Origin: Microbacterium sp. SORGH_AS_0862
Lineage (GTDB): Bacteria > Actinomycetota > Actinomycetes > Actinomycetales > Microbacteriaceae
DNA: 64,000 nucleotides
Direction of reading: 5' to 3'
Assembly (NCBI RefSeq): GCF_030818795.1
Contig: NZ_JAUTAY010000001.1
Coordinates: 930,001-994,000 of the forward strand
The first letter of the stretch is position 1, and every line of letters starts with the position of its first letter. The position numbers were made by a program, and so were the translations under genes. The notes under the pieces were generated by a model. The model searched no databases, had not been told where the DNA came from, and was given only the letters and a program-made list of their open reading frames with translations. Below are positions 21,815 through 24,942 of this stretch, piece after piece.

Positions 21815-23101
21815 ATGCCCGATTCCCGCGCCCGCCGCGCCCGCAGCGGCCCCCGCCTCCGACGACCAGTGATCATCGCCGCGCTCGTCGGTCTGGTGAT
21901 CGCCCCCCTCACCGCCACCGCCGTCGCCACAGCGGTCTCGGCCAACGCCAAGGCCACCGCGATCGCCACACTGTCGGCCACCGACGGCGTCGTGGGCGAC
22001 GCCCTCACCCTGACGCTCGACACGACCGATGCCGACGACGTCTACGCCGCCGCCGTGAGCCTGAGCTTCGACGCGTCCCGCCTCACCTTCGACGAGGACG
22101 CCCTCACCAGCGACTTCCCCGGCATGTACAGCGTCGTGGGCGAGATCGCCGGCGACGAAGGACACCTCGACTTCACCCTCACGCGACTCGGCACCTCGAG
22201 CGGAGCGGTCGGCGAATTCTCGCTCGGAGAGCTCGGCTTCACCTCGACCGCCTGGGGCGACGCCGCCATCACGATCGACGCCGTGACCCTCGTCGACAGC
22301 GAGCTCGGCCGGATCGAGCAGAAGCCCGGAACCACCCTCACGTTCCGCGTTCCCGCACCCCCGGAGCCCACGACTCCGCCGACGGAGCCCACCACTCCCC
22401 CCACCGAACCCACCACTGCCCCGACCGAGCCGACGACGGCGCCGACCGAACCCGCGGAGCCCTCGACGCCGACGAAGCCGACGACACCCGCCGCACCCAC
22501 CGCACCGAACGCGCCCGCGACCCCGAACAGCCCGACGGTCATCGCGGCCAGCGGCTACGGCACGACGGTCGCGAAGCCCTCCTCGGGCTCGGTCGTCGCG
22601 GCACCGCAATCGAGCGCCGCGCCCACCAACCAGACGGCGCAGATCGCTGCGTCGACCGCGAAGCCCGCGCCGGGCGCCACCGTCGAGCTGACGGTCACCG
22701 GCCTCGCCGCGAACACGGCGCACCGCATCGAGCTTCACTCCGACCCGATCGTGCTCGGCACCGCGGTCAGCGACGCGGCGGGCTCGTTCACCTTCACGGC
22801 CACGATCCCGGAGACCGCCCCCACCGGCGAGCACGAGATCGTCGTCCTGGCCGACGACGCCGTGGTGGCGACCCTGCCCATCACGATCGCGGAGGCGACC
22901 GCATCCCCGGCGCCGACGGCGAGCCCGACCGCATCCGCCACCGCCGCCCCCGAGGTCGACACGGATGCGGCATCGTCCGCCGACTCCTCCGGCGGCATGG
23001 CCTGGTGGATCTGGATCGTCGTCGCACTGGTCGTCGTCCTCATCGCGGCCGTCATCGCCCTCGTGATGTCCCGCAACCGCAGCAAGGAGAAGAGCGAATG
23101 A
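21815..23101 (+). CDS. Membrane-anchored cohesin-like protein
   Basis: A 428-residue exported protein. Residues 1-44 are a basic N-terminus and signal/anchor helix (VIIAALVGLVIAPLTATAVA). Residues about 47-180 form a cohesin-like beta-sandwich, with the opening pattern VVGDALTLTLDTTDADDVYA and the core VSLSFDASRLTFDEDAL. A Thr/Pro/Glu linker of repeating TEPTTPP-type units covers about 181-240. A second beta domain (about 290-370) starts PAPGATVELTVTGLAANTAH. The C-terminus has a transmembrane helix after GGMAWWIW and a basic tail. The start MPDSRARRARSG is followed directly by the signal helix. The stop overlaps the dockerin-amidase start (ATGA), so cohesin and dockerin proteins are made together. 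The match is by pattern only. Confidence 0.8.
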   Translation: MPDSRARRARSGPRLRRPVIIAALVGLVIAPLTATAVATAVSANAKATAIATLSATDGVVGDALTLTLDTTDADDVYAAAVSLSFDASRLTFDEDALTSDFPGMYSVVGEIAGDEGHLDFTLTRLGTSSGAVGEFSLGELGFTSTAWGDAAITIDAVTLVDSELGRIEQKPGTTLTFRVPAPPEPTTPPTEPTTPPTEPTTAPTEPTTAPTEPAEPSTPTKPTTPAAPTAPNAPATPNSPTVIAASGYGTTVAKPSSGSVVAAPQSSAAPTNQTAQIAASTAKPAPGATVELTVTGLAANTAHRIELHSDPIVLGTAVSDAAGSFTFTATIPETAPTGEHEIVVLADDAVVATLPITIAEATASPAPTASPTASATAAPEVDTDAASSADSSGGMAWWIWIVVALVVVLIAAVIALVMSRNRSKEKSE

Positions 23102-24942
23102 CGCACGCATCCATCGCCCCCGTACGCCGCGCGACGCTGCTCGCCGGGATCGGCCTCGCCACCGTCGGCATCCTCGTCGCCGGCGCGGCACCCGCCTACG
23201 CCGCCGATGACTCGGTCAGCTACCTGGCACCGGAGTACCAGGCCGGCGAGCTCACCGGCGACGACAAGGTCGACACCGACGACCTCGCCATCCTGATGAC
23301 CGCCGTCGGCATGACGTCCGACGACGCGGACTGGGAGACCGTGGCCGCAGCCGACGCCGACGGCGACGGCGTGATCACCGTCCTCGACGTCGCCGCGCTC
23401 TCCAAGGCCTATCTCTACGACGACGACCCGTTCGAGATCCTGGAGACCGATGTCGTCGCCGTCCAGAAGGCGATGACCGCCGGAGTCCTGACCTCCGAGC
23501 AGCTGACCGCCGAGTACCTCTCCCGCATCGCCGCCTACGACCGGGTCGCCGGCATCGACCCCGCCGCCCCGGCCGAGATGCTGGAAGCGATCGTCGCCAC
23601 CAACCCGAACGCGATGGCGGAGGCGAAGGCACTCGACGCCGAACGGGCCGCCACCGGTCCGCGCAGCATCCTGCACGGCATCCCGGTGCTGGTGAAGGAC
23701 AACATCAACACGGTCGACATGGCCACGACCGCCGGCTGCGCCTGCCTCGCGGACAACCGCACCTCCACCGACGCGGAGACCGTGGAGCGGCTGAAGGCGA
23801 TGGGTGCCATCGTCATCGCCAAGGCCAACCTGTCCGAGTTCGCCCAGTCCACGGCGTCCTCGATCAGCAAGTACGGCACGACCCGCAACGCCTACGGGCT
23901 GGGACGCGACCCGGGCGGCTCGAGCGGCGGCACCGGCGCATCCGTGTCCGCCAACCTCGGCGTCTTCGGACTCGGAACCGACACCGGCGGCTCCGTGCGC
24001 GTCCCGTCCTCCTTCAACGCGCTCGTCGGCATCCGCCCCACGATCGGACTCGTGAGCCGCGAGGGCGTCATCCCGCTGGATCTCTACCGCGACACCGTCG
24101 GCCCGATGGCCCGCTCCGTCTCGGACGCGGCACTCGCCCTCGACGCCCTGGCCGGCACCGATCCGATGGATGCGGTCACCGCCGGCGCAGACGGCGTCAA
24201 GCCGCCGTCGTACGCACAGGCCCTCGACCCGAAGGCGCTGGAGGGCAAGCGCATCGGATACATCTCGGGGCTCGTCTCCGGCAACCAGAACGCCGTCGGA
24301 TTCCGCCTCGTCCGGGGCGCGTTCACCGACCTGGAGGCCGCCGGCGCCACCGTGATCGACGTCGGGAGCTTCGGCAGCGTCAACGGATACGGGCTCGGGA
24401 GCCTGCCGGGCAGCTCCTCGTTCACCCACGACATGAACGAGTACCTGAACGCCTACTACCGGCCCGGCTACACGTTCGCCGACCTCGCCCAGCGGGTCAC
24501 CGATGCGGCGAACAGCGGCGGCCCGACCCTCTCCACCTGGTCGGCGGCCACCGTGCGCGGCTGGGCCTCGACGAGCGACGCCACCCGGGATGCGGCCTAC
24601 CCGAACTTCAGCCGCACCCAGCAGGCGATGCGTGATCGCGTCGATCAGCTCATGACGCAGTACGACCTGGACGCGGTCATCTACCCGAGCACGGGCGGGA
24701 CCGTCGGCTCCCCGGCCAGCAACAACCGCATCAGCGCGTTCAGCGGCTACCCCGCGATCTCGGTGCCGATGGGCTTCGCCGACTCGACACTCGACGAGAC
24801 GAGCTACAGCGGATTCCCGATGGGGCTGGAGTTCCTCGCCGAGCCGTACTCCGAGTCGAAGCTGCTGGGCTTCGCCTACGCGTACGAGCAGCAGACACAG
24901 CACCGCCGGCCGACGACGCTCTTCCCCGACCTCGCGGGCTGA
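23098..24942 (+). CDS. Secreted amidase with N-terminal dockerin-like module
   Basis: A 614-residue exported enzyme. The signal peptide (1-35) ends AAPAYA. Residues about 50-110 hold two calcium-loop helices of a type I dockerin: GELTGDDKVDTDDLAILM, where loop 1 has Glu51 and Thr53 in place of the usual Asp and Asn, and DADGDGVITVLDVAALSK, a complete loop with Asp86, 88, 90 and 97. Residues about 120-610 are an amidase-signature domain with the full triad: Lys200 in PVLVKDNINT, Ser275 in DPGGSSGGTGAS and Ser299 in GTDTGGSVRVPS; the spacings 75 and 24 equal those of FAAH. AAGGAG precedes the ATG. It should hydrolyse an amide or peptide-like bond outside the cell while docked on the upstream cohesin protein. 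The substrate is unknown. Confidence 0.88.
   Translation: MTHASIAPVRRATLLAGIGLATVGILVAGAAPAYAADDSVSYLAPEYQAGELTGDDKVDTDDLAILMTAVGMTSDDADWETVAAADADGDGVITVLDVAALSKAYLYDDDPFEILETDVVAVQKAMTAGVLTSEQLTAEYLSRIAAYDRVAGIDPAAPAEMLEAIVATNPNAMAEAKALDAERAATGPRSILHGIPVLVKDNINTVDMATTAGCACLADNRTSTDAETVERLKAMGAIVIAKANLSEFAQSTASSISKYGTTRNAYGLGRDPGGSSGGTGASVSANLGVFGLGTDTGGSVRVPSSFNALVGIRPTIGLVSREGVIPLDLYRDTVGPMARSVSDAALALDALAGTDPMDAVTAGADGVKPPSYAQALDPKALEGKRIGYISGLVSGNQNAVGFRLVRGAFTDLEAAGATVIDVGSFGSVNGYGLGSLPGSSSFTHDMNEYLNAYYRPGYTFADLAQRVTDAANSGGPTLSTWSAATVRGWASTSDATRDAAYPNFSRTQQAMRDRVDQLMTQYDLDAVIYPSTGGTVGSPASNNRISAFSGYPAISVPMGFADSTLDETSYSGFPMGLEFLAEPYSESKLLGFAYAYEQQTQHRRPTTLFPDLAG

Follow-up and report, generated by a model that had tools for sequence, protein, structure and literature searches.

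The pairing of cohesin with dockerin is the model case of proteins that plug together with high affinity, and most discussion of it concerns cellulosomes. The solved structures nearest to both halves of the system described here are non-cellulosomal: they are the NagJ and NanJ cohesins and the NagH dockerin of Clostridium perfringens, with PDB entry 2ozn holding both sides of one complex (NagJ cohesin and NagH dockerin) and entry 2vo8 the cohesin of NanJ. The subject of this analysis is a pair of overlapping genes in a 64,000-nucleotide stretch (the window) of the genome of Microbacterium sp. SORGH_AS_0862, of which gene A encodes an anchored cohesin-like protein and gene B a dockerin-tagged amidase with a predicted signal peptide. 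The two genes and their ATGA junction are as an initial annotation of the window had described them, and the nearest proteins that carry names come from Microbacterium. It is likely that gene A and gene B constitute a dedicated cohesin-dockerin display pair that operates outside any cellulosome.

The proposal of a minimal one-scaffold, one-enzyme unit draws support from the tight linkage of cohesin and dockerin-amidase across genomes. Genome searches, in which a limited number of candidates was scored per genome, used profile A1, built from eleven cohesins including gene A, its paralogue in the same genome and some fused cohesins, and the dockerin-amidase profile A5, seeded likewise and including the window sequences; since the seeds are part of the profiles, their lineages match by construction. 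In a sample of named genomes (80 loci kept of at least 489 confirmed), dockerin-amidases were present at 46 loci, and 44 of these had a cohesin either adjacent or in the same chain: 33 as a separate protein, 8 both in chain and separate, and 3 in chain only. The two loci with no cohesin (L022 and L057) both lie at contig ends. At the 34 loci whose amidase has no dockerin a cohesin was found in no case (0/34), nine of them having less than 1.5 kb of flank on one side. The same pattern was seen in 150 genomes of the family, where 13 genomes gave 14 matches to the full-length dockerin-amidase profile and 12 genomes gave 13 strong cohesins, each of the 13 lying beside a dockerin-amidase. Thirteen of the 14 full dockerin-amidase loci have a strong cohesin nearby, and the remaining match begins 154 bases into its contig; none of the 79 other amidase matches (of 93), which start at model position 39 or later, adjoins one. 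Weak cohesin matches in four further family genomes (E 0.002-0.008), three of them with an internal stop, were taken as noise. Among 217 genomes of the genus, dockerin-amidases occur in 37 (38 loci) and cohesins in 35 (36 loci), with both in 35, and a cohesin was found in 0 of the 180 genomes that have no dockerin-amidase. The genus loci comprise 33 with a separate adjacent cohesin, one fusion (L105), one pair split by contig ends (L106 and L107) and three with a damaged dockerin. Fisher tests of co-occurrence, which ignore relatedness, gave p values of 2e-38 for the genus, 8e-17 for the family and 1e-20 for the named loci. When 396 genomes from across the phylum were searched, at strict thresholds and with no more than 8 and 10 candidates scored in the genomes listed, the window genome alone was returned for both profiles; this sample adds no test of linkage.

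The distances between cohesins correlate with those between dockerins beyond what amidase distance accounts for (partial r 0.23, a value reached by 2 of 2000 permutations), which lends weak support to co-divergence of the two domains. This calculation used the 79 of 88 pairs left after removal of identical amidases; not counted among the 88 are the three loci whose dockerin is damaged, those that lack a complete pair, and those that repeat the two pairs of the window genome. An N-terminal dockerin on an amidase, which had been expected to be unusual in an actinobacterium, is not peculiar to the window genome: the named genomes in which dockerin-amidase and cohesin recur together include those of Curtobacterium, Leifsonia, Cellulosimicrobium, Nocardioides and Paenibacillus.

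Profile searches, suggested at the outset for both proteins, placed the dockerin of gene B above the Pfam cut-off for PF00404 and left gene A, on its own, at 15.9-18.8 bits against the Pfam cohesin profile, below the cut-off; nor was any solved cohesin found among PDB sequences with a profile built from that clade alone. The predicted fold of gene A residues 46-182 is nevertheless that of a cohesin, and the domain is homologous (39% over 101 residues, E 5e-13; hhalign probability 99.5) to its paralogue P0142, an accepted cohesin that scores 45 bits against a Pfam cut-off of 24.1. Because of this fold and this homology the cohesin reading of the beta-sandwich was retained; the combination named beforehand as speaking against it, no profile match together with a non-cohesin fold, was not what was found. 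Upstream of the domain, structure prediction gave a low-confidence helix at residues 19-27.

Gene B has the dockerin fold and profile match expected of a type I dockerin, together with two apparent 12-residue calcium loops whose ligands are conserved. The putative ligands are Glu51, Thr53, Asp55 and Asp62 in the first loop and, as had been read by eye, Asp86, Asp88, Asp90 and Asp97 in the second. All eight positions carry Asp, Asn, Glu, Thr or Ser in 79/79 pairs; at position 53, the 79 have Thr in 71 and Asn in 8. The catalytic domain, judged by its sequence, belongs to the amidase signature family, and the proposed Lys200/Ser275/Ser299 triad is borne out by alignment (Table 1). Its closest solved relatives are structures of peptide amidase (5ac3, E 3.5e-80; 1m21, E 7.4e-79), so that peptide C-terminal amides, or similar amides, might be guessed to be the substrate.

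The interface between the two domains may have changed in the window pair. A strand resembling LYAYDLxLxYD and a segment resembling T(R/K)xGxSP are frequent in the anchor cohesins of both phyla in which such pairs occur, and both are missing from the in-chain cohesins of Paenibacillaceae. Gene A keeps the segment, as TRLGTS; its strand reads VYAAAVSLSFD, against YAYDL or YAYEL in many of the other anchor cohesins, and has Ala at the Asp position. In type I cellulosomal cohesins a strand-3 Asp, Asp39 of CipA Coh2, contacts the dockerin, and it matters in CipA; since it is missing, gene A is not classed as a type I cellulosomal cohesin, and the window pair may use an altered mode of contact.

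The association of cohesin with dockerin-amidase persists across different types of anchor. Among 84 separate cohesin open reading frames (five repeat loci excluded; 77 remain distinct when the final 200 residues are compared), an LxxTG-like motif followed by a helix closes 68, in 55 of them as LAxTG; the pattern is a loose one, and three of the 68 do not have the initial Leu. Five more, the clade of the window protein, have a helix only, eight are Paenibacillaceae-type partners, and of the last three one has no visible anchor, one is truncated and one is cut by a contig end. The window pair is the divergent form; most separate partners have an LxxTG-like sorting signal. Five of five LxxTG partners compared with NCBIfam matched models of sorting signals, in every case with a score short of the curated cut-off. 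In the four Paenibacillaceae partners tested, a cohesin match is accompanied by three SLH matches, above the cut-offs; the other four of the eight were judged by eye. A Nocardioides partner (L030:6201-7361) has no visible wall or membrane anchor.

Single-chain fusions of cohesin, dockerin and amidase were found at eight Paenibacillaceae and three actinobacterial loci, and at L105. In the eight Paenibacillaceae enzymes (L021, L023, L025, L029, L034, L036, L039 and L049) a divergent cohesin directly precedes the dockerin, and the enzyme gene is followed by that of a separate cohesin protein, a layout which suggests possible chains of enzymes. L105 (genome G625), a single-chain cohesin-dockerin-amidase within the genus, is apparently an independent fusion accompanied by anchor loss. 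Of the three loci with damaged dockerins, no cohesin was found at L103 and L104, and at L102 the cohesin frame continues with no sorting signal; in all three the pair may have decayed jointly.

These comparisons bear on other ways of accounting for the locus. The dockerin directly precedes the amidase in 16/16 aligned sequences, and Tyr107 and Asp108, immediately after it, are invariant in the 16, as would be expected if it packed on the enzyme; it could then be an intramolecular structural cap or folding aid, the neighbouring cohesin protein being unrelated in function. This is improbable, given that amidases without a dockerin are common (34/80 kept named loci; 79/93 family matches), that dockerin and cohesin co-occur, and that damaged dockerins accompany lost or altered cohesins. 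It is very improbable that the cohesin serves as an adhesin-like beta domain for some other surface or host ligand, the dockerin having a different partner and the linkage serving co-expression only: the window genome has no further dockerin or cohesin above cut-off, and natural single-chain proteins unite both domains in several lineages.

A further alternative accepts that the two proteins bind, and differs as to the purpose: the cohesin would hold or shield the amidase during export and then release it, for instance at low calcium. The gene overlap implies that the two proteins are produced jointly, and calcium loading of dockerins is reversible in principle. Yet a transient chaperone needs no wall anchor, and LxxTG-like signals on 68/84 partners and SLH domains on 4/4 tested make this explanation an unlikely one.

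According to the favoured explanation, that of a display pair, gene A would be exported and would remain membrane-bound through its C-terminal helix, with its cohesin held outside the cell on the Thr/Pro stalk. Gene B would be secreted, and its N-terminal dockerin, once loaded with calcium, would plug into the gene A cohesin, so that one amidase is retained at the cell surface rather than lost by diffusion; the ATGA overlap would cause both proteins to be made together. What the analysis establishes are the predicted folds, the catalytic residues, the gene overlap and the close co-occurrence of the two domains across genomes and anchor types; binding, the calcium requirement and surface retention are what we infer. 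It is tempting, though doubtful, to go further and propose a widespread, cellulosome-independent, one-enzyme display system of Gram-positive bacteria, in which the anchor is swapped among membrane helix, sortase signal and SLH domains and in which Paenibacillaceae, with cohesin and dockerin on the enzyme beside an SLH-anchored cohesin, string amidases into wall-tethered chains. The pair represents the simplest case, with one socket, one plug and one enzyme, and related pairs are found in genomes of two phyla. Natural controls are at hand in the fusions, the decayed pairs and the two parallel pairs within one genome, and the purpose of such pairing without a multi-enzyme complex therefore becomes testable. 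The survey also gives protein engineers numerous new cohesin-dockerin pairs, which may be orthogonal to one another.

Table 1. Features of the gene A-gene B locus, in window coordinates.
Feature	Position	Strand	Basis or remark
Gene A, anchored cohesin-like protein, 428 aa	21815..23101	+	
Gene A N-terminal basic stretch and hydrophobic signal/anchor, residues 1-45	21815..21949	+	read by eye
Gene A cohesin-fold domain, residues 46-182	21950..22360	+	beta sandwich (predicted)
Gene A Thr/Pro/Glu-rich linker, residues 183-273	22361..22633	+	sequence; pLDDT <50 over most
Gene A second beta domain, residues 274-359	22634..22891	+	resembles macromomycin
Gene A C-terminal membrane helix, residues 394-425	22994..23089	+	basic tail; without LxxTG motif
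ATGA overlap, gene A stop / gene B start	23098..23101	+	
Gene B, secreted dockerin-amidase, 614 aa	23098..24942	+	secretion from predicted signal peptide
Gene B signal peptide, residues 1-35	23098..23202	+	sequence, read by eye
Gene B dockerin domain, residues 50-108	23245..23421	+	PF00404; dockerin fold
Gene B calcium loop 1, residues 51-62	23248..23283	+	
Gene B calcium loop 2, residues 86-97	23353..23388	+	
Gene B amidase-signature domain, residues 110-607	23425..24918	+	PF01425 E 3.6e-89
Gene B catalytic Lys200	23695..23697	+	invariant in 16 sequences
Gene B catalytic Ser275	23920..23922	+	invariant in 16 sequences
Gene B catalytic Ser299	23992..23994	+	invariant in 16 sequences

Before de-duplication, 63 of 74 cohesin-first loci have an in-frame ATGA at the junction between the two genes and 8 of 74 have GTGA; for the 65 distinct loci the corresponding figures are 55 and 7. 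The reverse order, with the amidase gene first, was found at 11 loci (before de-duplication).

The window genome (3.5 Mb, one contig) contains two dockerins above the Pfam cut-off, both on amidases, and two cohesin matches, that of the paralogue above the cut-off and that of gene A below it; together they make up two neighbouring pairs. The search for further dockerins in this genome, also suggested at the outset, thus yielded just one more, on an amidase that is itself paired. A third dockerin-like match (14.4 bits), lying opposite what by eye is a probable pseudouridine synthase frame, was dismissed as noise. The second, paralogous pair (L006:7040-9648; genome C1:2337039-2339647) sits between nusG and rplK, has an in-frame ATGA junction, and its cohesin ends in a sorting-like LATTG; two sortase matches above cut-off are present in the genome. 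The nusG neighbourhood was considered as a conserved site for this pair and rejected, nusG being found only in the window genome among the retrieved loci, mostly with flanks of a few kb. Each of the two cohesin proteins has one cohesin match, no multi-cohesin scaffoldin was found, and no glycoside hydrolase was found among dockerin proteins above cut-off, so that a cellulosome is unsupported for this genome.

The NagJ and NanJ cohesins are carried, according to the PDB titles, on secreted glycoside hydrolases, as is the NagH dockerin, whereas the window cohesin is carried by a protein dedicated to anchoring, with an amidase as the enzyme. The peptide amidase structures (1m21, 1m22 and 5ac3), from Stenotrophomonas, match gene B over residues 110-607, and as the match starts at residue 110 they leave its dockerin uncovered.

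PMC11557425 classes as anchoring scaffoldins of cellulosomes those proteins that combine one or more cohesins with SLH, LPxTG or a C-terminal helix; the present systems similarly place a cohesin on a wall- or membrane-anchored protein, and the Paenibacillaceae partners share the cohesin plus SLH layout. Unlike cellulosomal systems, the window genome showed neither a multi-cohesin protein nor a dockerin-glycoside hydrolase. That work surveyed 305,693 genomes for multi-cohesin scaffoldins and dockerin-glycoside hydrolases, and because it required both it would miss pairs of this kind; it lists one Paenibacillus species with a two-cohesin scaffoldin. PMC3544764 reports that cohesins and dockerins were not found in three Cellulomonas genomes, in contrast to L057, a dockerin-amidase of Cellulomonas iranensis. 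No description of a dockerin-amidase with a cohesin partner was recognised among the titles and abstract openings listed from open-licence literature, although the print record may hold one. Cohesins and dockerins of the non-cellulosomal kind are known from other bacteria and from archaea (Peer et al. 2009, cited by PMC9012536). Like the present pairs they stand apart from cellulose degradation, and the archaea concerned have no large scaffoldins; what sets the present pairs apart is that a single enzyme family is involved, in one-to-one neighbouring pairs that extend over two phyla.
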